Shown here one piece after another: positions 3,231 to 64,000 of a stretch of 64,000 nucleotides of DNA. This DNA is from Flavobacterium sp. (GTDB lineage: Bacteria > Bacteroidota > Bacteroidia > Flavobacteriales > Flavobacteriaceae). Position 1 is the stretch's first letter. Each line of letters starts with the position of its first letter. The stretch lies in contig NZ_SEBS01000001.1 of assembly GCF_004211145.1 (NCBI RefSeq), forward strand, positions 62,001 through 126,000. Direction: 5' to 3'. The translations under genes were made by a program, and so were the position numbers. The notes beneath the pieces are model-generated. The model was given only the letters and a program-made list of their open reading frames with translations. It did no database searches and was not told the origin of the DNA.

Positions 3231-4199
3231 ATGACGTTACAACAGCTCAAATACATTATCGCGTTGGACGAAGAACGGCATTTCGCAAGGGCTGCCGATG
3301 CCTGCATGGTCACACAACCCGGCCTCACAATACAGCTTAAAAATCTCGAAGAAGAAATAGGAATTAAGATTTTCGACCGAAATAAAGTGCCGCTTACGCC
3401 TACGAAAGACGGAATCGAAATCATTTCGCGCGCCAGGAAGATCCTTCGTGAAGCCGATGGTATCCGCGATTTCGTCGTCGATCGCAAAAACACGCTGGAA
3501 GGAAATGTCAAACTCGGCGTAATCAGTACGCTTTCGCCCTACCTGATTCCGCTGTTCATCAAAGCGATGCGCGAAGTTGCACCGAAAGTGCATTTCATTA
3601 TTTCGGAAATGCCGACGGGGTTGCTCGTGCGCGGTCTCGAAACCGGTGAAATCGACATCGCGCTGATGGCAACGCCCACAGGACATTCGAACCTAAAAGA
3701 GCATTTGATTTTTCGCGAACCGTTTATCGCGTACCTCAACGACGGCCATCCGCAATCGGCAAACGAATTCTACGACCTCGAACCCAGTGACAAATCGGAA
3801 CTGCTGTTGCTCCAAAACGAATTCTGCTACAACGCCCAATTGCTCGACATCTGCGACATAAGTGACGCGGGAAGGATCACCGAAAAATTCAGTTTCGGAA
3901 TCAGCTCGATCGAGACGCTGAAGAATCTCGTGCGCGCGGGTCTGGGTTTCGCGATCATTCCGCAGTTGTCGATTTTGAACGATTCGGGAAATCCGCAGTT
4001 CAAGCCGTTCAAGGATCCGAAGCCGGTTCGCGAAATAAGCCTGGTGACGTCCGACTCGTTTTCGAAACAATTGTTGCTCGAGAAAATGAACGAAGCGATC
4101 TGGAATTGCTTGCCCGAAAATCTCAAACAGGATTTCGCATTCAAGAAAATCCGATGGGACGATTCGCCTTATTTCGCAAAGAAAATATCGGAATTATGA
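3231..4199 (+). CDS. oxyR: OxyR-type LysR hydrogen-peroxide sensor
   Basis: This 322-residue LysR family regulator has an N-terminal winged helix-turn-helix (MTLQQLKYIIALDEERHFARAADAC, residues 1-60) and a periplasmic-binding-like sensor domain. The sensor carries FCYNAQLLDIC around residues 199-208: two cysteines with eight residues between them, the same spacing as the redox pair C199/C208 of E. coli OxyR. That spacing is why I call it OxyR rather than a generic LysR protein. It should become an activator of peroxide defence when the disulfide forms. osmC is close by on the opposite strand. The gene converges with the deiminase gene three bases from its stop. Confidence 0.88.
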   Translation: MTLQQLKYIIALDEERHFARAADACMVTQPGLTIQLKNLEEEIGIKIFDRNKVPLTPTKDGIEIISRARKILREADGIRDFVVDRKNTLEGNVKLGVISTLSPYLIPLFIKAMREVAPKVHFIISEMPTGLLVRGLETGEIDIALMATPTGHSNLKEHLIFREPFIAYLNDGHPQSANEFYDLEPSDKSELLLLQNEFCYNAQLLDICDISDAGRITEKFSFGISSIETLKNLVRAGLGFAIIPQLSILNDSGNPQFKPFKDPKPVREISLVTSDSFSKQLLLEKMNEAIWNCLPENLKQDFAFKKIRWDDSPYFAKKISEL

Positions 4200-4202
4200 G
4201 CG

Positions 4203-5426
4203 TCATTTTCCCATTACTCCAACCGGCTGATTGCGCGAATGACAATGCAATCCGGCGCCGTCGTGGTGTAACGCCATGCAATCGATCTGGACTATTTTTC
4301 TGTTCGGAAATGCCTTTTCCAAAGCCTTTTTCGCGTTATCGTCACGCTTTTTTAAATCGTCGTCCGCGCCCGGTTTCCAATACTTTGCGGTGATGACCAC
4401 GCCATTCGCGATGATAAAGTTCAGGTAACCCGTAGCCAAATAGAATTCGATCTCGTCTGAGGTTGCGCCCTCAAACCAACTCTTTTCCTCGACCGACAGC
4501 GATTTAAGTTTCACTTTTTCAGACAACAGCGGCCCAATCGGAATTCGGATAATCGTAAAGGGCTTTCCATCCTGATCTGACGCTTCTTCAAGGATTTCAT
4601 AATTTTCACGCATTCGGGTCTGCGTTTCTTTCGCTATCGGATTTTCGCGCGCCTCGGCATCTGAAACTTCAGCTAGTAAAATCGTGTTGTGATCGGCGAA
4701 ACGGCAAAATTCATCAATATGGCCGCCAGTTCCGATGCCGTACAATCCGTTTTCAAGCCTTCCCCATTCTTCTTCTTTTGCGCCTTTTTTAAGCCAGATT
4801 ATTTTGGAAACTCCCAGGACGCGTTTGTATTCGCTTTCAATTTCAGCTCTCGACATCTTGGGGTTTCGATCAAATTCCACCGATTCTACGAGCAATAGCG
4901 TTCCTTTGCCGTTTGTTTGCCACGCGCCGCCTTCAGAAATCATGTCAGATTTGATGGTTGGCAAACCGAAATATTTGGCGACGTTACGGTCGATCTCTTT
5001 TGAACGTTCATCAGGATGATTGAAATTGAAATCGGCAACGGCGAACTTTTCGTTTTCGTTACGCAGGAAAATCGGTCCCGGATCCTGGATTGCACCGTAC
5101 GGTTTCGGATTGTAAAACAGGGCGACGCGCGATGTATCGACTTTTTCTTCAAGCAATCTCTTCCAAATTCTGGATTGCATTTGTTGCTTATTAAAGTTCG
5201 CCGTCGGACCATAAAACAGTCGAATTTTGGAATAAGGTGTAATTTCTCTCATTGCGGCCAAGGCAGTGTCGCAAAATGGTTCGCCTCCTAGAAATCCAGA
5301 CTCGACCCAACTTAACCAAATGTATTCCTGTGGCTCGAATTCGGCCGGGATCGTGAACTTTTCCTGTGCTTGCGTAATGGACGCGATGCAAAACACGACA
5401 GCAAAAAAAAGTGGCTTTTTCATCAT
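4203..5426 (-). CDS. Secreted agmatine deiminase / peptidyl-arginine deiminase family protein
   Basis: This 407-residue protein belongs to the PAD_porph/agmatine deiminase family of guanidino-group hydrolases. Seen are EGGAWQTNGKGTLL (substrate and Asp region), GTGGHIDEFCRF (catalytic His region) and the C-terminal GAGLHCHSRNQP with the nucleophilic Cys. It has a signal peptide ending ASITQAQ, so unlike cytoplasmic agmatine deiminase it is exported. The ORF track adds 89 spurious residues from inside cydB; I use ATG 5426, whose ATGA overlaps the cydB stop, implying translational coupling. Whether the substrate is agmatine or peptidyl-arginine is open. Confidence 0.85.
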   Translation of the reverse strand: MMKKPLFFAVVFCIASITQAQEKFTIPAEFEPQEYIWLSWVESGFLGGEPFCDTALAAMREITPYSKIRLFYGPTANFNKQQMQSRIWKRLLEEKVDTSRVALFYNPKPYGAIQDPGPIFLRNENEKFAVADFNFNHPDERSKEIDRNVAKYFGLPTIKSDMISEGGAWQTNGKGTLLLVESVEFDRNPKMSRAEIESEYKRVLGVSKIIWLKKGAKEEEWGRLENGLYGIGTGGHIDEFCRFADHNTILLAEVSDAEARENPIAKETQTRMRENYEILEEASDQDGKPFTIIRIPIGPLLSEKVKLKSLSVEEKSWFEGATSDEIEFYLATGYLNFIIANGVVITAKYWKPGADDDLKKRDDNAKKALEKAFPNRKIVQIDCMALHHDGAGLHCHSRNQPVGVMGK

Positions 5427-29679: not shown

Positions 29680-31245
29680 TTAGTAACCGTCGTTTTGCGT
29701 GGTTCCTGGATTGTTATCGATTTCCAACTGCGGAATCGGGAAAAATTCGTGACCCGGAACGTACGTATTGTACTCGGCATCGCGCGCTTTGAGCCACTCC
29801 AATTTTACAGGATCCTGAAGCCATCCCCAACGGCGGATGTCGTCGAAACGGTGTCCTTCAAGTGCGAACTCCAACATGCGCTCGTGCCCGATCTGTTCAC
29901 GCATTTGCGACTGTGTCATGCCTGGATTCGCAACGGCCAAATCAGGAAGCCCGACACGTGAGCGGACCATTTGGATATACTGGTACGCATCGGCGGTTTG
30001 TCCAGCTTCGTTCAGACATTCGGCGTACATCAACAACACGTCGGAATAACGCATCAAACGTTCGTTGATTCCCGAGCGCCAGTCGTATTCGTTGGCGAAT
30101 TCACCATCAGAGTTTTGGTATTTGCGACAGAAAAGTTCGTTCAGATCAGACGGACTGTTCGCATAAAACGTCGCGAAATCCTGACCGTATAACATCATGC
30201 CGCCCGGCTTGTTGTAGAACATCGTGGCGTCGAGGCGTGGATCTACGTCTCCCCCGGTCGTAGGTTCAAGCAAGAACTCGTTATACAAAGTCCAGCTTGG
30301 CTGCACGTCGGTCCATCCGAAGTTGCGCGGCGCATACGTGATCGCACGAGCCGACGTTTTCCCCCAACCTGAAGCGGGAACTCCGCCCCAACCTAGATCG
30401 ACACCTCCGGCGCTGCGGCTGAACTGTACCTCGAAAATAGATTCGGAGTTGTTCTCGTTCGCAGTCGTAAAGTTGTCGCGGTAATTTGAAACCAACGAAT
30501 ATTGATTCGAGCTGATCACGGTTTGGAATGCTTGTCTCGCGCTTTCGAAATCTCCGGTGAACAAATGCGCTTTCCCTAAATATGCGATTGCAGCACCTTT
30601 CGTGGCGCGACCTTTCTGACCTTGATCGGCTCCGGTTACTTCGTCGTAATTGTTCGGAAGCAGGTCGGCCGCCATTTGGAAATCGGCTTTGACTTGCGCC
30701 CAACCTTCTTCCTCGGTTTTCTGGGCATTGTACAACTGTGAATTGTCCAATGGCAAAGGCACGCGTTTGAACATGTTCACGGCGTGGAAGAAATACAGCC
30801 CGCGAAGGAAATAGGCCTGGCCTAAGATTCGGTTCTTGTACGCTTCGTCGGCAAATGTAATATCAGGAACATGCGCCAAAACCTGATTGGCGCGGTAGAT
30901 TCCCTGATAGTAGGTTTCAAACGCCCAACCGTAGATCGCGGCATCGGCGATACTTGAATTGAAACGGCCTACGTTCGCCATGGCCGCCCACGGTGAATTA
31001 CTGCGCGTGTCGTCGCCTTTAAGGTCAAGCAAAAGCGGTGTGCTTCGCATGTAGGTTCCGTCGGTAAGCAAACTTCCGTACACGGCATTCACGCCGAGCA
31101 ACGCATCGTTTTCGTCTTGCCAGAATGTGCTTTCGGATTCGTTGTTCGGATCCAGCTGTACCAAATCGTCTTCGCTGACACAACCAATCATGAGCAGGCT
31201 CAAAACCGGTGTCAACAAGAATAGTTTAAAATTTACGTTCTTCAT
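29680..31245 (-). CDS. susD: SusD/RagB family surface glycan-binding lipoprotein
   Basis: This 521-residue lipoprotein (lipobox LLMIGC) has the SusD fold: an N-terminal helix with NESESTFWQDENDALLGVNAVYGSL, TPR-like helices including RGLYFFHAVNMFKRVP, and a C-terminal LRYSDVLLMYAECLNEAG segment. It caps the SusC channel and captures arabinan fragments at the surface. It follows susC by 18 bp. Confidence 0.95.
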   Translation of the reverse strand: MKNVNFKLFLLTPVLSLLMIGCVSEDDLVQLDPNNESESTFWQDENDALLGVNAVYGSLLTDGTYMRSTPLLLDLKGDDTRSNSPWAAMANVGRFNSSIADAAIYGWAFETYYQGIYRANQVLAHVPDITFADEAYKNRILGQAYFLRGLYFFHAVNMFKRVPLPLDNSQLYNAQKTEEEGWAQVKADFQMAADLLPNNYDEVTGADQGQKGRATKGAAIAYLGKAHLFTGDFESARQAFQTVISSNQYSLVSNYRDNFTTANENNSESIFEVQFSRSAGGVDLGWGGVPASGWGKTSARAITYAPRNFGWTDVQPSWTLYNEFLLEPTTGGDVDPRLDATMFYNKPGGMMLYGQDFATFYANSPSDLNELFCRKYQNSDGEFANEYDWRSGINERLMRYSDVLLMYAECLNEAGQTADAYQYIQMVRSRVGLPDLAVANPGMTQSQMREQIGHERMLEFALEGHRFDDIRRWGWLQDPVKLEWLKARDAEYNTYVPGHEFFPIPQLEIDNNPGTTQNDGY

Positions 31246-31263
31246 GATTCAATTTTTTTCTTA

Positions 31264-34200
31264 TTAAAAACTAATGTCAACTCCAAAAAGGACTCCGCGT
31301 GGGTTCGGGAATGAACCGCCGTCAACACCGCGTGAAAGCACGTTTCCGTTGTAGTTGATGTCAGGATCCAAACCGCGGTAGTTCGTGAACGTGTACAGGT
31401 TTTGGCCTGATACATAAACACGGGCTCTTTTGATGAATAAATCTTTCAATGGCAATGTATAGCCAAGTTCCACGCTCTGTATCCTCAAGTAATTACCGCT
31501 TTCCACGAAACGGTTCGACGGGCGTGAGTTTCCGTTAAGGTCGCGGTAATCGACGCGCGGCACGTTCGTGTCGGTGTTGTCGACTGTCCAGTGGTCAACC
31601 AAGTCAGTGCTGTAATTATTCAATCCGCTTGTCATCAACGCGTTGTACATGCTGTTGTAGATCTTGTTTCCTCCGACTCCTTGAAGGAAAATCGACAAAT
31701 CAACACCTTTATAGCTTGCATTCGCGTTTATTCCGTAAGAGATTTTAGGGATTGTTGTTCCTTGGTACGTACGGTCTTCATCGTTGATGATGTCGTCTCC
31801 GTTAACGTCCTTGAATTTCACGTCACCCGGAACGGCGTTCGCTTGGAAAGCGTGTGCGTCGATTTCGGCTTGGTTTTGGAAAATTCCTTCAGTTTGATAG
31901 ACGAAAAGTTCTCCGAGTGAACGCCCGACCTCTGTTTTCGAATTGATTCCGAAAAGAGGCAAATTGTCGTCCCCGATCTTCAACACCTTATTCTTGATCG
32001 TTCCCAAGTTGGCCGAAATCCCGTATTTGAATTCCCTGTCCTGATTCTGGTAACCCAAGGCGAATTCCCATCCGTAGTTCTTGAATGTCGCCGCGTTGGT
32101 CACGATTTGCGCAGGGAAAGAACCCGTTGAAAAAGGAAGTGGCACGGGAGCGAGGATATCTTCAGACGTCTTCACGAAATATTCGGCTGAGAAAGTCAAC
32201 TTGTTGTTGAAGAATGCCGTTTCAAGAGCGACGTTGGCCGTTTTTGTCGTTTCCCAGCTGATGTTCTGATCCAAACGCGCCACGTTCGTTGTTCCCGGTG
32301 CGGTCTGGTCGTTGAAATCGTAGCTCGAGAATGCGTTGACCGTTTGTGAGAAAAAGTATGGCCCGATAGCGTTGTTACCCGTCAAACCGTAACCTCCGCG
32401 CAATTTCGCAGCAGTCCACCAAGACGGAAGCTTGAAGTCGTTGTGGATTTTCCAAGCGCCGCTCACCGAGTAGAAATCACCTGCGTTATTCTGCTCAGGG
32501 AAAAGTGAAGAACGGTCCTGACGCCATGTTCCTTGAATGATGTAGCGGTCGTCGAACGTATAGATCGCACGCCCCAGGTAGGAAACGCGTGTTTCGACGG
32601 CTTCATATTCTCCTGCCGAATTGTTGTCGGCGTATTCAAGATGTGCGATCTCACCCGGTTGGAAACCTACGCCACGTGACCAATGACGGTAACGGTCGTT
32701 GCGTTCCTGTACATAACCTCCGAGTAATTCTATGTGGTGTTTTCCAAAAGTGCGGTCATAGGTAAGCAAGTTATCGATGATCGTGCGTTGGTTTTTACCG
32801 TTGTCGACGTCAAGCGATGCCTCGTCGTTTGTCGTAATATAATACCAGCCCAAATCACTCGGCGGAACAAAGAAACGGTTTCCGTAATGCAATTGGTCGG
32901 CACTCAAGCTCAACTTGTACTTCAAACCGTTTAGGATTTCGAATTCTCCCCAAACATTACCCAGGAAACGGTCGCGGTAGCCTTCGTTCTTGACGAGGTT
33001 GTTCCATCCGATGACGTTCAACGTGATGGCGCGTTGCGTGAAGTTGTCGGCACCTCCGTATCCGCCAAGACGGTTTTCATCGTACACGGGCATAGTCGGA
33101 ATCGCCTGTAAAAGGTTTAGGATATTCGATGTTCCGGGCAAGTATTCGCTGAAACTGTCCTTGTTCGAATCGGAATACGAAAGTTTTGCACCGAACCTGA
33201 ACTTGCCGAGTTTTCCTCCGAGGTTCAAATTCGTAGACGTACGCACATATTCCTGAGGCGAACGCACATAACTCGTGTTTTCGAATCGGTCGAGGTTGAG
33301 GCTGAAGTTGAACGTTTCAGTTCCTCCGGCAAGATTGATCGCCTGGTTTTGCAATTGTCCCGTGCGGAAAGCGGCATCCTGCCAATCCGTATTCACGTCG
33401 TCTATATAAAATTCGCTCGTCGGATCATTTCCGGGAAGCGGAACGTTAAGGTTGATCGGATCGGCGACCCAAGCCTCGTTTGCGATCTGCTGATATTGCT
33501 CACGATCAGTAAGCGAAAGTTTCTTCGCTACGTTCTGGAATCCGACAACCGACTTCAAGTTGATGTTCAGTTTGCCGTTTTTCCCTTTTTTGGTCGTGAT
33601 AATGATTACACCGCCCGCACCACGAACACCGTAGATCGCTGCCGCCGATGCATCTTTAAGCACCTGCATCGACTCGATGTCGCCCGGAGCGAAATCGTAT
33701 GGATCGTCCACGATCACGCCGTCGATAACGAATGTCGGGTTGTTATTGGTCAATGACGAAGCACCGCGGATCTTGATGTTCACGAAACCTCCAGGCTCAC
33801 CCGAAGATTGGACGGTCACGCCCGCAACTTGTCCTTGCAACATCTTGGCGACATCATGCGTGACGGTTTTTTTGGCGTCATCGACATCGACAACTGAAAT
33901 CGCGCCGGTCAGGTCGGATTTCTTCTGCGTACCGTATCCGATTACGACTACTTCATTCAAAGTATTTTCATCGGGCGACAATTTGATGTCGATTTTAGTT
34001 TGGCCGGCGAGTTTTACTTCCTGCGAAACGAATCCGACGAATGAGAAAACAAGAATGTCACCTGACTTGGCGGAAATCTCATATTTTCCGTCGATATCTG
34101 AGGCGATTGCATTGGTGCTTCCTTTAACGGCTACGTTTGCCATTGGCAATGGCATTCCCGTATCGGACGCAGTGATCGTACCGCTAACAGGACTCTGGGC

Positions 34201-34299
34201 GCTCATGCCCAAAATCGAAAACAGCAATACGACTCCTGCAAACCGTACTCTCGCGAGACTGCCTGAAGCGCATTTTAACAACTTGGTTAGTGTCATCAT
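31264..34299 (-). CDS. susC: SusC/RagA family TonB-dependent outer-membrane transporter
   Basis: This 1011-residue receptor has a signal peptide (to about residue 35), a carboxypeptidase-D-like regulatory domain (SGTITASDTGMPLPMANV), the SusC plug motif region VVVIGYGTQKKSDLTGAISVV, a plug with IKIRGASSLTNNNPTFVIDGVIVDDP, and a 22-strand barrel ending in GVLFGVDISF with terminal Phe. It imports oligosaccharides using TonB energy. It is the first gene of the arabinan operon, with a consensus promoter and two operator-like palindromes upstream. Confidence 0.96.
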   Translation of the reverse strand: MMTLTKLLKCASGSLARVRFAGVVLLFSILGMSAQSPVSGTITASDTGMPLPMANVAVKGSTNAIASDIDGKYEISAKSGDILVFSFVGFVSQEVKLAGQTKIDIKLSPDENTLNEVVVIGYGTQKKSDLTGAISVVDVDDAKKTVTHDVAKMLQGQVAGVTVQSSGEPGGFVNIKIRGASSLTNNNPTFVIDGVIVDDPYDFAPGDIESMQVLKDASAAAIYGVRGAGGVIIITTKKGKNGKLNINLKSVVGFQNVAKKLSLTDREQYQQIANEAWVADPINLNVPLPGNDPTSEFYIDDVNTDWQDAAFRTGQLQNQAINLAGGTETFNFSLNLDRFENTSYVRSPQEYVRTSTNLNLGGKLGKFRFGAKLSYSDSNKDSFSEYLPGTSNILNLLQAIPTMPVYDENRLGGYGGADNFTQRAITLNVIGWNNLVKNEGYRDRFLGNVWGEFEILNGLKYKLSLSADQLHYGNRFFVPPSDLGWYYITTNDEASLDVDNGKNQRTIIDNLLTYDRTFGKHHIELLGGYVQERNDRYRHWSRGVGFQPGEIAHLEYADNNSAGEYEAVETRVSYLGRAIYTFDDRYIIQGTWRQDRSSLFPEQNNAGDFYSVSGAWKIHNDFKLPSWWTAAKLRGGYGLTGNNAIGPYFFSQTVNAFSSYDFNDQTAPGTTNVARLDQNISWETTKTANVALETAFFNNKLTFSAEYFVKTSEDILAPVPLPFSTGSFPAQIVTNAATFKNYGWEFALGYQNQDREFKYGISANLGTIKNKVLKIGDDNLPLFGINSKTEVGRSLGELFVYQTEGIFQNQAEIDAHAFQANAVPGDVKFKDVNGDDIINDEDRTYQGTTIPKISYGINANASYKGVDLSIFLQGVGGNKIYNSMYNALMTSGLNNYSTDLVDHWTVDNTDTNVPRVDYRDLNGNSRPSNRFVESGNYLRIQSVELGYTLPLKDLFIKRARVYVSGQNLYTFTNYRGLDPDINYNGNVLSRGVDGGSFPNPRGVLFGVDISF

Positions 34300-54415: not shown

Positions 54416-54697
54416 TTTGCGCGTTTTCGAGCGGATTTCGGCCAAAAACGTCCAAAGAAAACGTTGTAGTAAGCATCGTAAAGCATCGAAAAAACCATAC
54501 AACAACTATACATTAGCGGTTTTTATAAGTTAGTCAAACGCTTTATAATTCGTTATTGTGGAAGATTTTATCGACCAACTCAATCGTTTTCATAAATATT
54601 TGGTTGTATAGTTTATATATGCGATAATTGCAGACTACGTAATTATGTTATTATTTATTTTAGCTTTCGACAAATTTAATTCCTAAAAATGTGTGAT

Positions 54698-56293
54698 ATG
54701 AAAAAAATTACCCAATTAGTAGTATTAACGATCGCGTTGCTGAACGGAGTCTTCGTTTACGCCCAACCGACCACTAATGCGCCTACCCCTACAAATGCCG
54801 CGGCAGATGTAATCTCTATATATGGTGATTCGTTCCCGAGCGTGGCAACAAATTACAACCCGAACTGGGGACAAACCGGTCAGGTGAACCCATCGTACGA
54901 TCCGGGAACCGGAAACCTGGTGTTGGCGTATACCAATTTCAATTATCAGGGAACCGAGTTGACGAACCAGAACGCGTCGGGCATGGAATTCCTTCATATC
55001 GACATCTGGACATCGACCGCGACCAATATTAAAGTTTCGCCTATCAACGGCGGCAGCGGAACCGGAACTCCAGAAGTTCTGGTCGACGTTCCATTGGTGC
55101 AGAATGGATGGAGCAGCGTCAACCTTCCAAAAAGCGCGTTCACGGGCATGAGCTGGGATGCGGTTTATCAAATCAAGTTCGATGGACAAAACGGCGCAAA
55201 CCCGTCGGCTATCTATCTCGACAATATCTATTTCTGGAAAACACCTACGGCGGCCGGGTCTGACGCGTCCTTGAGCGATTTGAAAGTGGACGGAACGACA
55301 GTGCCCGGATTCACTTCTTCGGTTACGAATTACACGGTCGAACTCGTCGTCGGGACAACTACGGTACCACAAATCACCGGCTCGACTACGACTGACGCGA
55401 ATGCAACGGTTACTTCGACTACGCAGGCGTCGGGAATTCCGGGAACTGCATCGGTTTTGGTCACTTCGGCCAATGGAAACGTTACGAAAACATATACCGT
55501 GAATTTTGTGGCATCGCTTCCGAACCCATCGCCTCAACCGGCAACTCCAAACATGGAAGTCCTAAGCCTTTACGGCGACACGGGCGGATTTACGAACATC
55601 TGGACACCGAACTACAACTTCGGCGTTTTTGCCGGAAAACCGGATCTCGACCCGACAGCGGGCGTGAATGAAGCGATCAAAATGAATTTCGCGGTCGCAG
55701 GTTATGGCGAAGGAACTGATTTGGTGACGAATATTTCAACATATCAATGGCTACACTTCGATTATTTCGCGGATGGAACTTCTACGCAATTGCGTTTCAT
55801 CATCATCGGCAACGTAGGCGGTGTCGTAACCGAATACAACTACGAATTGAATACGACTGGCGGCGGAAACGGATCACTCACGGCCGGTTCTTGGCAAAGT
55901 GTGAACGTACCGTTGAGCTTCTTTACGGGATTGGGCTTCAACAAGGCGAATTTCTTCCAGTTCAAATTGGGAACTTCTTCAAACTTGGTGTCTAACATCA
56001 TATACTTCGACAATATTTACTTCTCGGTGAACGAGCCGCTATTGCAATCGGAAGGTTTTGCAAAGGCGACATTCAGCGCGTATCCGAACCCGACTCGCAA
56101 CGAGTGGAATATCAACGCGACCCAGAACATTACTTCGGTTACCGTTTTCGATATTTCAGGAAAGCAGATCAAAGCGTTGCAACCGAACGATTTAAATGCC
56201 GTGATCGACGCATCGGAACTGTCGAACGGAATCTACTTCGCCAACGTCCTTACTGACGGCGGCAGCAAAACGATTAAACTTGTTAAGAATTGA
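54698..56293 (+). CDS. T9SS-exported protein with two DVISIYGD-type beta-sandwich modules
   Basis: This 531-residue protein (signal peptide ending VFVYAQ) has two copies of a module seen as an accessory domain of bacteroidetal glycosidases: ADVISIYGDSF...NPNWGQ with FLHIDIWT and IYLDNIYFWK (about residues 35-185), and a diverged copy MEVLSLYGD...IYFDNIYFS (about 285-440). Between them is a cadherin-like beta-sandwich (SDASLSDLKVDGTTVPGF). The C-terminus AYPNPTRNEWNI, VTVFDISGKQI, NGIYFANVLTDGGSKTIKLVK is a type A T9SS sorting domain. No catalytic domain is present; glycan binding is a guess. The 282-bp gap upstream holds no clear promoter. Confidence 0.87.
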   Translation: MKKITQLVVLTIALLNGVFVYAQPTTNAPTPTNAAADVISIYGDSFPSVATNYNPNWGQTGQVNPSYDPGTGNLVLAYTNFNYQGTELTNQNASGMEFLHIDIWTSTATNIKVSPINGGSGTGTPEVLVDVPLVQNGWSSVNLPKSAFTGMSWDAVYQIKFDGQNGANPSAIYLDNIYFWKTPTAAGSDASLSDLKVDGTTVPGFTSSVTNYTVELVVGTTTVPQITGSTTTDANATVTSTTQASGIPGTASVLVTSANGNVTKTYTVNFVASLPNPSPQPATPNMEVLSLYGDTGGFTNIWTPNYNFGVFAGKPDLDPTAGVNEAIKMNFAVAGYGEGTDLVTNISTYQWLHFDYFADGTSTQLRFIIIGNVGGVVTEYNYELNTTGGGNGSLTAGSWQSVNVPLSFFTGLGFNKANFFQFKLGTSSNLVSNIIYFDNIYFSVNEPLLQSEGFAKATFSAYPNPTRNEWNINATQNITSVTVFDISGKQIKALQPNDLNAVIDASELSNGIYFANVLTDGGSKTIKLVKN

Positions 56294-56340: not shown

Positions 56341-56538
56341 TATCAGTTCCTGGAAATTCCCCAATCTCCAATCACCTGCATTTTTTTTACCCTTTTCACG
56401 AAAACGATATAGCGTTTACGGGAAGGTCGGCTAGTGTCTTGACTAACCAACAAGATCTGGCAAAAACGAATGAATATGAACAAAGCAGCTGAGGAAAATT
56501 CCTTAGAGATTAACAACCATTATGAAAACCAAACGATT

Positions 56539-59500
56539 ATGAAGAACATTAAAAACCTGATCCTGCTACTGCTTGTATTTGTGGCGGGCATCGATGGTAG
56601 CGTCGCCCAGAACACGCAATGCGCGGGCACATCTACCCAACTGTCCCAAGGTAGCGGCATGGCCGAATACCGGTACAAATTCACGACGTCAGGCAATGAC
56701 GTGACCGTGGAATTTGAGGGCTTGACGCCAGTGACCGGACTCGTCTGCTACGCCTGGACATTCAATCCCGGCTTTGCCGAATTGCCGATGACAAACGTGG
56801 GCGGACAAACCTTCCGACGTACGTACACGAACGTAACACCGGGCAGTACTTTTACCGTCGCGTGTAAATTCGAATGGGCCGCGGGCGGATTCGCCGTTAC
56901 CCAACAATTCCAGTACACGGTCGGAAACGACTGCGGAGGCGGAAGTTCGCTTCCTGCACCGACAATCGGAACATTCACCGTTCCCGCAAAAGTTTTGGGC
57001 GACGCTGATTTCGCGATCACGGCACCGACTTCAAACAGCGCCGGTGCTTTCACGTACACGAGCAGCAATACCGGAGTTGCCACGATCGTGGGCGGAAACA
57101 GCATCCATATCGTAGGTGGCGGAACATCGACCATCATGGCTACACAAGCGGCGACTGCTAGCTATTCATCGGGAAGCACGACCGCTACGTTTACGGTTAC
57201 GGTTCCGAACACGACACCTGCGGCAGGACCTGCGGCTCCACCGGCGAGAAATCCTTGGGACGTTTTGTCTCAATACGGCGCGGCCTATACGAACCAACCT
57301 GGCGTTATTTTCGACAATTTTGGCGGAAGTACGATCGTGGGCGACGTTACGCTTGCCGACAACAGCGTCGTCAAAAAATACATCAACCACAGTTATTCAG
57401 GAATCTCGACGAATGGCGCGCTGGATTTGAATGTGTCGGCAATGACGCATCTGCACATCGACGTTTGGTCGCCTGATTTCGTGTCGTTCAAGATAAAACT
57501 CGAAGCCGCGAATGGCAGCAACATCGAATTGGAAGTTCCGGGCGCGAAATCCCAAGGCACTTGGAATTCTTACGACATCCCATTGAGTTCTTATTCGGCC
57601 GTTGATTTGGCACATTTGAAATATATCGTTCCGGTTACTTTCAATCCGAACAACACTACACTTTTCATCACCAACGTATATTTTTACCGACCTGCGACGA
57701 TACAACCTCCGACATTGGGAGCGTTCACGGTTCCGGCTAAAAACGTAGGCGATGCTGATTTCGCGATCACAGCACCGACATCAAACAGTGCCGGAGCATG
57801 GTCATACACAAGCAGCAACACGGCTGTAGCGACGATCGTCGGAGGCAACATGATTCATATCGTCGGAGGCGGATCATCGACCATCACCGCGACCCAAGCT
57901 GCGAACGGCCCATACGGACAAGGTGTCGCGACGGCTACGTTCACCGTTAATTTCCCGGATCCGGGCGCATCGCCGACACAACCTGCGAGAAACCCCGCGG
58001 ATGTGGTTTCGATTTTCGCGAATCCGTACTACACGGACATTGCAGGAACCGACTTCAACCCGAACTGGGGACAAACGTCGAACCACCCGAACAACCTGAC
58101 TACGCCATCATACGGTGGCAACCAAGTCAAACAATATCAAAATTCAGGCACGTATCAAGGAACGGCCTTTGCAAACACCGACGCCACGTCGATAAACAAA
58201 TTGCATGTGGACGTGTACTCGCCTACGCTCAATTCGATCCGTTTGGTGTTGATCACCGCGGGCTCTGGAGAATCAGGCTACACGCTCGCTTTGACGCCGG
58301 GTGTTTGGAACAGCTTCAACATCGACGTGAACGCTGCGAATTTCCCAGCGGTAAATCTCGCACTGATCAACCAGATCAAATACGACGAACCTAAAGTGGG
58401 CGCGGCGATTACGGGAGGCCAGATTTTCGCGATCGACAATTTGTATTTCTTCCGTGAGGTAGGAACGGCACCGACACTCGGAGCATTCACCGTCCCTGCG
58501 AAAGTCTTGGGCGACGCAGACTTTGCAATCACGCCTCCGACTTCAAATAGTCCCGGAGCGTTTTCATACAGCAGCAGCAACACTGCGGTAGCGACTGTGA
58601 TCGGTGGAAACCTGCACATCGTTGGCGCTGGTTCGTCGACCATCACGGCGACACAGGCTGCGAGCGGCAGTTATACATCGGCGAGCACGACGGCAGTATT
58701 TACGGTAACGGTTCCGCCGTTGACGACTCCTGCTCCGACACCTCCGGCAAGAAACCCTTGGGATGTGATTTCGATGTACAGCAATGCTTACGCGACTTCA
58801 TCTTCTCCTTCATGGCAAAATGCGTCCACGACGACCGACGAACTGCTTCAAGGCAACGACACCAAGAAAATATCGAATTTCCTTGTTGAAATCCTAAACT
58901 TCCAGGCAACCGATTTGACTGCGATGACGATGATGCACATCGATGTCTATTCAGAAGACTGCACAGGATTGAACCTTTGGCTGCAAAACAACGGCGACCG
59001 CGTGGCACAACGTTCGGTTACGTTGAACCAATGGAACAGCTTCGACATTCCTTTGTCGACGTATTCCAACCAAGGCCTTAACATGACCGGCGTATTCTTC
59101 CTCAAGTTCGAAGGTTTGAACGGCCCGGGCAAAACCATTTACGTGGATAACGTTTACTTCTATCGTCCGGCGACTTCATTGCCTCCGACATTGACCGACT
59201 TCTCGGTTCCGGCACAACCATTCGGCGCCGCTCCGTTTACATTGACGGCTCCGAATTCAAACAGCGCGGGCGCATTCACGTACACGAGCAGTAATCCTGC
59301 AGTTGCGACTATAAGCGGAAACACCGTGACTGTCGTCGGTCCTGGAACATCTACGATCACGGCTACTCAGGCCGCTGACGGAAGTTATGGTTCGGCAAGC
59401 ATCACGGCTCAATTGGTCGTAGCGTATCCGACTCCCGGACCTTCACCGATTCCACCGACAAGAACACCGGATCGCGTCGTTTCTATGTATACGGGAACTC

Positions 59501-61281
59501 CGTCGACTTACGCAAACGCGATTACGGCCGTGCGTTCGAACTGGACGGGAGCGACCACGTTGACTGAAATCCCGAACGGAACGAACACAGCTTTGCGTTT
59601 GGACAACTTTGGCTTCTTAGGTCTTGTCGACCAAAACGAAACGCTATTCGATGTTACGGGCATGAGCCATTTGCACGTCGACATATATCTAAATGCGCCT
59701 TTGAACGCGAATCTTGCGCAGTCGAACGTGATGATCTTCTTGATTTCAAACGGAGATCACATGTACACCGCGTCTAACTTGCACGCAGGTTGGAACTCGG
59801 TCAGCATTCCGATGACGGCTTTTCCTGCCGCGACGTTGAACAACGTTTACGGATTGAAATTCGAACAGAACGTTACCGCTCCGACGCAGATCTACATCGA
59901 CAACGTGTATTTCAGCAACGAATGTTATACGTATTACGCCGATGCCGATGGAGATACTTATGGTGATCCGAACAATTCTCTCGCGTTGTGCGCGCCTCAA
60001 TCAGGCTATGTCTTGGACAACACCGATTGTAACGACGCCATCGCAGCGGTTCACCCAGGCGCTTCTGAAGTTCCTTACAACGGAGTCGATGACGACTGCG
60101 ACGGAACTATCGACGAAGGCAGCCAATTGTTGTCTAAAGTTTTGGCTTCCCAATGTGGAACGACGCTTACTACGATCAACTCTTTGATTGGTGCCGTGAG
60201 TTTTGGCGCGCCGGTTGACGGCTACCGTTTCCGCGTTGTGAACACGACTACGAATGCGGTTCAGACAATCGACCGTACGGCTCCGAACTTCCAGTTGACG
60301 GCTCTTGCGACTTACGACTACGCTACGACGTACTCTATTTCAGTTCAATTGCGTCGTAACGGAATCTGGCTTAACTACTACGGAGATCCTTGTTTGGTTT
60401 CAACACCTGCGGTTTTGGATCCGGGTGGAGCGGCTTCGGTCACGCCATCTCAATGTAATATCACGCTTACGAACATCTCGACGCTTATCGCTACTACAAG
60501 TCTGCAAGGCGTTACGGGATATCGTTTCCGTATCACGAACCTTACCGATGCAAGCGCACCGAACCAAATCCAGACGCTTGACCGCACGACACATTGGTTC
60601 TCTCTCACGATGTTGTCGACGTATGCTTACGGCACGACTTACAGCATCGAAGTAGCGTTGAAAACAGGAAACAGCACAACCTATTCAGGTTACGGTTCGC
60701 CTTGTAACATCACGACTCCTGCGGTTCCTGTAATCACGAATCCTGGCGTTGCGACCACGAACAATACGTTGTTCTACACAAGCAGCATGAACCGTGCGAC
60801 TTCGTACCGTTTCGAACTGACGCTTGCAACCGCTCCGTTCACTACGATCATCGTAGACCGTGCGGCGCATTATTTCAGCTTTGGAAATGTTCCGGGATTT
60901 GTTCCTGGCGCACAGTACGCAGTTCGCGTGGCCGTGATGACATCCGGAACTTGGTCTCCGTTCGGGGAAGCTTCATTGGTCACCGCTCCGGGCGCGACTC
61001 GTGGCATGTTCGAGGAAGAGGCGGCACCGGGCATCGCGTTCCGTGCAGTTGCTTATCCGAACCCATATCTGGAAGGATTCTCGCTGGACATGGACACGGC
61101 AAGTGACGAGCGCATTCAGGTAAAAGTCTACGATATGGTAGGCAAATTACTTGACAACCGCGAATTCGCAGTGGACGCGATAGAAATGCAACAGTTCGGC
61201 GAGCGTTATCCGTCGGGTGTTTACAATGTTATTGTGACCCAAGGTGCTTCGGTGAAGACACTCAGGGTTATCAAAAGATAA
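56539..61281 (+). CDS. Giant T9SS surface protein: four Ig-plus-sandwich modules, MopE-like motif, three fibronectin-like repeats
   Basis: This 1580-residue protein (signal peptide ending GSVAQ) has an N-terminal domain to about residue 135, then four tandem units of about 250 residues (starting near 138, 389, 644, 881). Each unit has an Ig-like part (TxxAFTVPAK, [14 protein letters not shown]) and a DVxSxY sandwich ([27 protein letters not shown]). Near 1129-1194 lies an Asp-rich putative metal-binding motif ([36 protein letters not shown]). Three YRFRxxN repeats follow, then a type A sorting domain ([23 protein letters not shown]). No enzyme domain is seen. Start ATG 56539 (MKNIKNL) rather than the track's 56470. 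Confidence 0.88.
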
Positions 61282-61302
61282 GTTGTGGAGTTATTAATAA
61301 AG

Positions 61303-61330
61303 ACACCTCTCTTAATCGAGGGGTGTTTTT
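61303..61330 (+). terminator. Rho-independent terminator
   Basis: ACACCTCTC pairs with GAGGGGTGT (one G-U pair) and is followed by TTTT. It lies in the 70-bp gap after the giant surface protein gene. Confidence 0.8.
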
Positions 61331-61351
61331 AATTTTCTAAAAATCAAAACT

Positions 61352-63424
61352 ATGACAACCTCAAGAAATAAATTGGCGATAGTGTTCTTGCTGTATTCGG
61401 CGATGAGCATGGCGCAAGTTGGCGTCGGGACGACCTCTCCCGCGGCCACGCTTGACGTTACCGCCGCTAATTTGACGGGAACTACCGTTGACGGCTTATT
61501 GATCCCGAGGGTTTCCAGACTGCGCGCGCAATCCATGGTGGGCACTCCGACCTCGACGGTATTGTACGTGAACGACATCACGAACGGAACGGCCACTGGC
61601 ACAACCGTCAACGTGACAACGACCGGATTTTATTTCTTCAACGGAACCGTTTGGGAAAAACTCGGATCGGGCGCGACGAACGCATGGAATACGACAGGAA
61701 ATTCGGGATTGTCAGGTACGACGAATTTTCTTGGAACGACCGACAACATCGATTTGGCGTTCAGACGAAGCAACACCGCGGCCGGAAAAATCGGAGCGAC
61801 GAGCACGTCTTTCGGAACAAATGCTTTGACAGCCGGAGTTGCAACGAACAACGCGGCCTTCGGGACTAACGCGTTGGCTGCGAGTACCGGAGCCGATAAC
61901 GTCGCTGTCGGAAATGGAACGTTGACATTGAATACGACCGGAATCCAAAACACAGGCGTCGGAAATGCCGCTTTGGCCGTGAATACGGGAAGCGCTTCGA
62001 CGGCCGTCGGTTTTCAGGCATTGAACGCGAATACGTTGGGAAATAATGGAACGGCAGTCGGTTTTCAGGCTTTGTCGAGGAACACGACGCAAAGCAACAA
62101 TACAGGTGTCGGATTCCAAGCGTTGACCAACAGCAACGGAGGCGTAAACAATACCGCTGTCGGATTTCAGTCAGGAGCCGGTCTCACAAGCGGAAGTCGG
62201 AACACATCGGTCGGCAACCAAGCCTTGCAATTAAACGTGACCGGAGCCGAGAATACGGCGGTCGGGAATTATGCATTGGGTCGGAACACGGGATCGGGAA
62301 ATACGGTAATGGGCCACGAAGCCGAATTCGGATCGGGCGTGAACTTCAACAATACGACAGCTATCGGCTGGCATGCGCTTTTCGGAAATTCGGGAAGCAA
62401 CAACACTGCGATCGGATACAATACGCTGCAAGGCAACGGCGCTGCTACGGGAAATACGGCCGTTGGATCGAGTGCGTTGCGCATCAGCACGGGCGCGAAC
62501 AATACCGCGTTCGGAACACAGGCCGGCGATGAACTCCAAACGGGCACAAATAATACCTATGTCGGGTTCGAAGCGGGCAGATACAATACGTTTGCGGCCA
62601 ACAACAATGCGTTTTTCGGTGCCCAGGCAGGACATTTTTCCCAAGGCAGTTTCAACGTCGCCATCGGATCGAACACACTTAAGGCGAATCAGGCTACTTC
62701 GAATAACGTAGCCGTCGGTTATAATGCGCTCACCATCAACGCAGGAACAGGAAATGTTGCGCTTGGTTACAGCGCGGGATCGGCTGAAACGGGTTCGAAC
62801 AAACTCTACATCGAAAATTCAAGTGCCGATGCGAGCAACGCGTTGATATACGGTGAATTCGACACGAACATCGCACGCGTGAACGGAACGTTGCAAGTCA
62901 ACAATCCGGCGAACGCCAACGGTTACGCATTGCCGAACGTACGCGGAACAAACGGCCAAATCCTGCAAACGAACGGCGCGGGAGCGACGAATTGGGTCAC
63001 GAGCCCGAGCGCGACGTTGTCTATGGTGCGCACCAATCTGGCGGCCAATCAAGTCCTCAACGATACGGGCTGGCAAAAGGTGAATTTCAATACCGTCGCG
63101 TTCGATTCGAGCACCGAATTCTCGACAGCGACCGGAAGATTTACGGCCACGAAAGCCGGCTTTTACCGAATCGATGCCGCGATCCATACGACAAGCCAAT
63201 CGAACAACCAGTTTTACTCGGTCGGGATACGCCGCAACGGGCTCTTCTACCAACAGACATCGGCGAATCACTTTGGTAACGGGCCGGTCGACCGCTCGGT
63301 AAGCTGTTTGATCCAGCTTGCAGTAGGCGACTATATCGAGGTCTATTTTGAGAATTACATCAACGGCGCCGAGATTGATTTCTTTAGCGGAAAAACCGTT
63401 TTTGAAGTCCAGCAATTGCGATAG
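61352..63424 (+). CDS. Surface protein with YadA-head-like repeats and a C1q-like C-terminal domain
   Basis: This 690-residue protein (signal peptide ending MSMAQ) begins with VGVGTTSPAATLDV, common in bacteroidetal tail-fibre-like proteins. About 20 repeats of 16-17 residues with the pattern NTAVGxxAL (about residues 150-475) resemble the left-handed beta-roll head repeats of trimeric adhesins. A neck-like segment NKLYIENSSADASNALIYGEF follows. The last 130 residues fit the C1q/TNF jelly roll: FTATKAGFYRIDAAIH and IQLAVGDYIEVYFEN. No T9SS domain or outer-membrane anchor is seen, so the export route is unclear. It is probably a homotrimer. Confidence 0.82.
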   Translation: MTTSRNKLAIVFLLYSAMSMAQVGVGTTSPAATLDVTAANLTGTTVDGLLIPRVSRLRAQSMVGTPTSTVLYVNDITNGTATGTTVNVTTTGFYFFNGTVWEKLGSGATNAWNTTGNSGLSGTTNFLGTTDNIDLAFRRSNTAAGKIGATSTSFGTNALTAGVATNNAAFGTNALAASTGADNVAVGNGTLTLNTTGIQNTGVGNAALAVNTGSASTAVGFQALNANTLGNNGTAVGFQALSRNTTQSNNTGVGFQALTNSNGGVNNTAVGFQSGAGLTSGSRNTSVGNQALQLNVTGAENTAVGNYALGRNTGSGNTVMGHEAEFGSGVNFNNTTAIGWHALFGNSGSNNTAIGYNTLQGNGAATGNTAVGSSALRISTGANNTAFGTQAGDELQTGTNNTYVGFEAGRYNTFAANNNAFFGAQAGHFSQGSFNVAIGSNTLKANQATSNNVAVGYNALTINAGTGNVALGYSAGSAETGSNKLYIENSSADASNALIYGEFDTNIARVNGTLQVNNPANANGYALPNVRGTNGQILQTNGAGATNWVTSPSATLSMVRTNLAANQVLNDTGWQKVNFNTVAFDSSTEFSTATGRFTATKAGFYRIDAAIHTTSQSNNQFYSVGIRRNGLFYQQTSANHFGNGPVDRSVSCLIQLAVGDYIEVYFENYINGAEIDFFSGKTVFEVQQLR

Positions 63425-63669: not shown

Positions 63670-64000
63670 ATGAAAATCAAATCAGGTTTCATTTGGCTAC
63701 TGCTGCTTCCTGTTTTTTTGTTCGGACAGGAATTGTCGCCAATTGTAAAATACAATCCATCGATTTATAACGCCGGAAACCAGAACTGGATGATTTCCCA
63801 GGATTCCCAGCGCTTCATGTTCTTCGCGAACAATGACGGTTTGCTCGAATTCAACGGGTCGGCGTGGACGTTGTATGCGTCGCCTAACGAGACGATCATC
63901 CGATCGGTAAAAGTCGTCGGTGACCGAGTCTATACGGGCTGTTACATGGAGTTCGGTTATTGGACGCGAGAGGCGAACAACCACCTCAAATACCATTCGC
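63670..64000 (+). CDS. Start of a beta-propeller sensor/regulator (partial, runs off the window)
   Basis: The open frame from ATG 63670 to the window end encodes 110 residues: a signal peptide (GFIWLLLLPVFLFGQ), then SPIVKYNPSIYNAGNQNWMISQDSQ and GLLEFNGSAWTLYASPN, the first blades of the two-component-regulator propeller type. In Flavobacteriaceae such proteins usually continue with a Y_Y_Y domain, a membrane helix and either a LuxR-type HTH or a histidine kinase. The ORF track missed it because it has no stop. It may sense a ligand bound by the adjacent surface proteins, which is speculative. Confidence 0.75.
   Translation, partial: MKIKSGFIWLLLLPVFLFGQELSPIVKYNPSIYNAGNQNWMISQDSQRFMFFANNDGLLEFNGSAWTLYASPNETIIRSVKVVGDRVYTGCYMEFGYWTREANNHLKYHS

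Follow-up and report, generated by a model that had tools for sequence, protein, structure and literature searches.

A repeat fibre with a C1q-like end, encoded beside a giant T9SS-sorted protein in a beta-glucan cluster of Flavobacterium

Trimeric autotransporter adhesins are defined by their C-terminal membrane anchor (PMC2483945), and heads of the YadA/BpaC type consist of a repeat of the form GxNSVAIGAxSxAx (PMC9543794). TNF/C1q-like domains form the tip of an appendage in BclA and F-BclA (PMC11952670), and the bacterial TNF-like domains of BC2L-CN and PLTL form trimers that bind sugars (PMC12914763). Literature searches on YadA and C1q in Bacteroidetes, on S74 or C1q fibres in Flavobacterium and on C1q with polysaccharide utilisation loci returned nothing directly on the class of fibres considered here, nor did a search on laminarin, polysaccharide utilisation loci and YadA, judged by titles. 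Many Bacteroidota fibres of this class have no recognised surface route, and the literature searched describes no function for them. Here we analyse one such fibre, encoded in a stretch of 64,000 nucleotides of a Flavobacterium sp. (contig NZ_SEBS01000001.1, positions 62,001 to 126,000; hereafter the window, whose coordinates are used throughout). New here is its coupling to a giant T9SS-sorted CBM/Big_2/MopE protein inside a beta-glucan cluster, which we observe in seven Flavobacterium. This setting offers a testable entry into the question of whether a fibre that resembles those of phage tails, but has a C1q knob like that of animal proteins, serves in glycan capture, and the gene pair raises a second one, namely whether the fibre is held on the cell by a T9SS protein.

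Architecture of the fibre protein

The fibre gene occupies positions 61352-63424 of the plus strand, exactly as given in a preliminary description of this DNA, and codes for 690 amino acids. Residues 1-21 (61352..61414, +) are a Sec-type leader that reads LLYSAMSMA before the mature start QVGVG, the cleavage between SMA and Q22 having been read by eye; in 30 relatives the leader itself is variable, with A21 and Q22 almost invariant. It is followed by a conserved N-terminal module of ~130 aa (residues 22-150; 61415..61801, +; QVGVGTTSPAATLDV...DGLLIPR...GFYFFNGTVW...FLGTTDNIDLAFRR) that has no Pfam name and for which AlphaFold, run with a 30-sequence alignment, gave a low-confidence model without a resolved fold. 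The repeat shaft (residues 151-480; 61802..62791, +) is built of turns of the NTAVGxxAL type with a period of 16-17 aa, about 20 of them, as already counted in the preliminary description. Residues 151-490 contain 14 copies of the strict motif N-x-[AGSTV]-[hydrophobic]-G vs 0.6 expected from 2000 shuffles, none of which gave more than 4. In the model each turn carries a short strand, with a pLDDT of about 60-90 over most of the shaft. An exit segment and connector (residues 481-556; 62792..63019, +; NKLYIENSSADASNALIYGEFDTNIARVNG...GTNGQILQTNGAGATNWV) come next and, in the alignment of relatives, belong to its best-conserved regions. Since no Pfam model matches residues 481-556, what had been called a neck-like segment stands as a connector by position only. 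The N-terminal module, the exit and connector and the C-terminal domain align with few gaps among relatives, and units have been added to or lost from the repeat array, so that repeat number differs between species. Between connector and C1q domain, F. silvaticum and F. caeni (L044, L046) have an extra connector unit of ~85 aa, of the ETDPQVSS...KWNGTTLVDG type.

The C-terminal domain (residues 557-690; 63020..63421, +) is C1q/TNF-like by Pfam, structure model, Foldseek and profile search, which bears out the C1q-like jelly roll of the preliminary description. Pfam C1q (PF00386) matches residues 574-669 with 28.2 bits, above the curated cut-off of 23.7 (E 2.5e-6), and reaches E<=0.01 in 16 of 30 relatives; cerebellin-1 and C1q were found by profile search. 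AlphaFold gave a useless model from single-sequence input (mean pLDDT 40) and one of mean pLDDT 70 from the 30-sequence alignment, in which the C1q domain of the single chain reaches about 90. Compared by Foldseek, this model resembles C1QL2, C1QL3, Caprin-2 and BclA (TM of target 0.76-0.87). Among the 50 PDB matches listed there are only C1q/TNF-type and spike jelly rolls, with TM values to C1q chains mostly of 0.7-0.87. With a Foldseek E of 1.6e-8 at a TM of target of 0.84-0.87, the predicted structure confirms a ten-strand C1q/TNF jelly-roll fold for the C-terminus of the fibre.

The repeats had been likened to a YadA head. This likeness holds for the shaft motif, and the same genome codes for a paralogue with the same N-terminal module and bona fide Pfam YadA_head repeats followed by an S74 domain. 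It does not extend to a Pfam YadA_head (PF05658) match, which is absent from the fibre and its 29 relatives, or to the period, which is 16-17 rather than 14. That the protein is a YadA-class trimeric autotransporter adhesin is extremely improbable and in fact already contradicted: the class-defining anchor is missing, as the preliminary description had stated, no Pfam YadA anchor being found in the fibre or its relatives, and the order is reversed, with the C1q knob at the C-terminus. The profile scan of the fibre did not find a T9SS sorting domain (TIGR04183/PF18962) either.

A modular fibre class and its likeness to phage tails

In the same genome, several proteins share this leader and N-terminal module, and three of them that bear repeats end in an S74 chaperone. 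Because paralogues and relatives share this module but end differently, we recognise a class of modular exported fibres with exchangeable ends, defined here as the Bacteroidota QVGIGTT-module exported fibre class by its leader, N-terminal module and NTAVG-type shaft, all of which the fibre has; the end may be an S74 chaperone, a C1q domain or, occasionally, a T9SS tail. Judged from its sequence, the fibre is one version of a large Bacteroidota class in which the N-terminal module and a similar shaft are common. Some members have arrangements of their own. In a 220-aa protein of the same genome (L020 4548-5210, minus strand) the N-terminal module is joined directly to a BclA_C/C1q domain, the repeats being absent. 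The gene of the S74 fibre with true YadA_head repeats (L014 4276-7479, minus strand) overlaps by 4 nt the downstream gene (3419-4279, minus strand), which encodes a protein with an end resembling that of T9SS cargo, as read by eye, and the two are perhaps a second fibre/T9SS pair. An Ignavibacteria contig holds four tandem repeat-fibre genes (L066 3230-14061, plus strand), and the one scanned has S74 and then a T9SS sorting domain.

The shaft also matches PHROG tail and virion families (E 4e-33 to 5e-24), is 30-40% identical to phage tail fibres, and the matches in the viral library span both shaft and C1q part, phage C1q-domain proteins included. A phage tail fibre gene or a relic of a prophage or extracellular contractile injection system (eCIS), close to the phage-tail-like relic of the preliminary description, could explain why phage tail fibres rank among the best matches of the shaft and why structural matches include phage proteins with C1q knobs. 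We nevertheless hold this origin to be highly unlikely. The fibre has its own signal peptide, and the neighbours examined are T9SS and carbohydrate genes, with no phage or eCIS genes among them. Its cellular synteny is conserved in seven species, in which pN/pS is 0.16-0.29 in every part of the gene, with synonymous sites near saturation. This purifying selection marks a maintained gene and not a relic, and shared building blocks account for the likeness. Of the other proposals of the preliminary description, a capsule-bound fibre found no support, and a free fibre is a candidate.

A giant partner gene within a beta-glucan cluster

A survey of gene neighbourhoods in Flavobacterium, which the preliminary description had advised for Flavobacteriaceae, revealed a setting that it had missed: the fibre belongs to a cassette with a T9SS-sorted giant inside a beta-glucan cluster. 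The partner gene (56539..61281, +) codes for this giant protein, with a T9SS sorting domain (TIGR04183, E 2.4e-8; PF18962), a Big_2 domain (PF02368), a MopE motif (PF11617) and repeated CBM-like domains; its start was chosen by eye, the longest ORF beginning at 56470. Before it lies another T9SS-sorted protein (54689..56293, +; TIGR04183, E 4.8e-14), which resembles one found directly before the regulator in fibre-free relatives. Both upstream neighbours of the fibre therefore carry the sorting domain that the fibre itself lacks, and the T9SS translocon protein SprA is present. Downstream starts a Y_Y_Y/LuxR-type regulator of 935 aa (63670..64000, +) that extends beyond the window, and behind it, outside the window, follow a conserved 1044-aa protein, a CBM11/30-like protein, GH16 and GH3. 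Partner and fibre form one insert in a GH16/GH3 beta-glucan cluster, flanked by the T9SS protein on one side and the cluster's regulator on the other. This cluster has the composition of a polysaccharide utilisation locus, as it unites GH16, GH3 and CBM11/30-like genes with a Y_Y_Y regulator. No adjacent SusC/SusD pair occurs among the genes examined beside the fibre, and the pair of SusD and TonB-plug genes at 29680-34299 lies about 27 kb off, on the strand opposite to the fibre. The exported 1044-aa protein (L013 4290-7421, plus strand), possibly an unclassified glycoside hydrolase, has no match in Pfam, NCBIfam or PDB, occurs in 78 of 400 Flavobacterium genomes and follows the Y_Y_Y regulator in the five relatives examined as well.

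The gap between partner and fibre measures about 70-75 nt in all seven beta-glucan loci, the contig of NTP45 holding only the last codons of the partner. It contains a terminator-like hairpin, TAAAGACACCTCTC-TTAATC-GAGGGGTGTTTTTA (61298..61331, +), that stops 20 nt before the fibre ATG. In 17 paired loci the hairpin is kept, with 98% of cells paired and 4 pairs changed on both sides (covariation). Its exact pattern, checked as a possible frequent generic terminator, has only 4 occurrences in the 4-Mb genome. It is possibly an attenuator between partner and fibre, or it may do no more than terminate the partner gene. A separate fibre promoter downstream of the hairpin was considered and rejected, the 20 nt left before the ATG being too short.

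Seven C1q fibres lie in the beta-glucan cluster, those of this window, F. agri, F. selenitireducens, F. silvaticum, F. caeni and the isolates PMG_227 and NTP45. In five relatives whose cluster lacks the fibre, the regulator is directly preceded by only one T9SS-tailed protein, which is why giant partner and fibre were probably gained together at this site. The cluster marker enzyme occurs in 78 of 400 genomes and only 4 of those sampled have the fibre inside the cluster; the fibre is therefore an accessory of the cluster and not part of its core. Across the genus, 43 of 400 genomes contain the exit, connector and C1q part. Many C1q fibre copies sit between an ABC ATPase gene and UbiB/OmpA/HtpG genes, and since roughly half of the C1q fibres lie at that other locus with no partner next to them, neither the partner nor beta-glucan is a general requirement. 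A pair of this kind is also seen at the other locus, with a C1q fibre in at least five further genomes and with a different fibre end in one case, and the best partner homologues outside the beta-glucan cluster include ones that adjoin other fibres. The partner is present in 37 of 43 fibre-bearing genomes vs 105 of 357 others, a comparison made without regard to phylogeny and with a permissive definition of the partner.

This distribution bears on whether the fibre is simply a general surface or autoaggregation adhesin, with the C1q domain only a trimerisation cap or a binder of proteins or other cells, and with the beta-glucan cluster an accidental landing site of the cassette. Most C1q fibres of Flavobacterium lie outside this cluster, the cluster is in most genomes complete without a fibre, and the location of the fibre there has a single origin, the seven cluster-linked fibres grouping together in the tree built from the C-terminal part (support 94/88), which also tempers the weight of the conserved synteny. 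On the other hand, seven species with 60-77% protein identity all retain the site between T9SS protein and regulator, and CBM-like modules occur in the partner. We regard such a general adhesin as possible, although doubtful.

Proposed function and comparison with known systems

To the following reading we give an even chance: the fibre would act, together with the T9SS partner, as an adhesin that is exported and probably trimeric; its C1q knob would nucleate the trimer and also bind a ligand, which is probably a glycan. Its sequence predicts Sec export and a mature protein beginning with QVGVG after removal of the leader. Three chains would probably join through C1q, as its fold family and the swapping of ends suggest, this domain standing in for the S74 chaperone or coiled coil that ends sister proteins. 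The shaft of ~20 turns would be a rigid spacer whose length can change. Attachment to the cell surface would probably fall to the N-terminal module, possibly via the T9SS-sorted partner, as the conserved gene pair hints. At the far end the C1q knob would bind a ligand, here most likely beta-glucan or a glucan-coated particle or cell; a glycan is suggested by the beta-glucan cluster together with bacterial TNF-like lectins and C1q-tipped fibres. In this manner the fibre would help to hold the cell at its food, and the hairpin would place it under read-through, less fibre than partner being made. Against the adhesin reading, the fibre itself has neither a T9SS sorting domain nor an outer-membrane anchor. 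It might then be a structural fibre of the periplasm or of the inner face of the outer membrane, never displayed, in line with a Sec signal being the only one recognisable. This we find unlikely, because related proteins with repeats and S74 on an Ignavibacteria contig carry T9SS sorting domains, and because the partner is T9SS-sorted. More speculative than the adhesin itself, and improbable as a whole in our judgement, is a transferable two-gene system in which the T9SS-anchored, CBM-rich giant would be the tether or exporter of an anchorless trimeric C1q-tipped fibre, the hairpin attenuator would set the dose, and one clade would have recruited the system as capture arm of its beta-glucan cluster.

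Among described proteins, the flavobacterial paralogues annotated as 'chaperone of endosialidase' (PF13884) have the same leader and N-terminal module as the fibre and share its connector and similar shaft repeats, but end in the S74 intramolecular chaperone and a coiled coil where the fibre ends in C1q. Tail fibres and spikes of tailed phages with NTAIGxxAL repeats approach it in their shaft, and some phage proteins in their C1q knobs, but they are virion proteins, whereas the fibre is a chromosomal exported protein. The left-handed parallel beta-roll of the YadA/BpaC head has the turn motif N-[ST]-x-A-[VI]-G with the conserved glycine also seen in the fibre, in turns of 14-15 aa instead of 16-17. 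BclA, itself a structural match, and F-BclA likewise combine a repetitive shaft with a trimeric C1q-like tip at the C-terminus, but their shaft is collagen and their place the spore surface of Bacillota. BC2L-CN and PLTL resemble the fibre in having a TNF-like domain, no sequence link having been found here, and are fucose-specific soluble lectins. Because the defining anchor is absent, the fibre is not a trimeric autotransporter; in its manner of working it would be comparable to phage tail fibres or YadA heads, outside that class.
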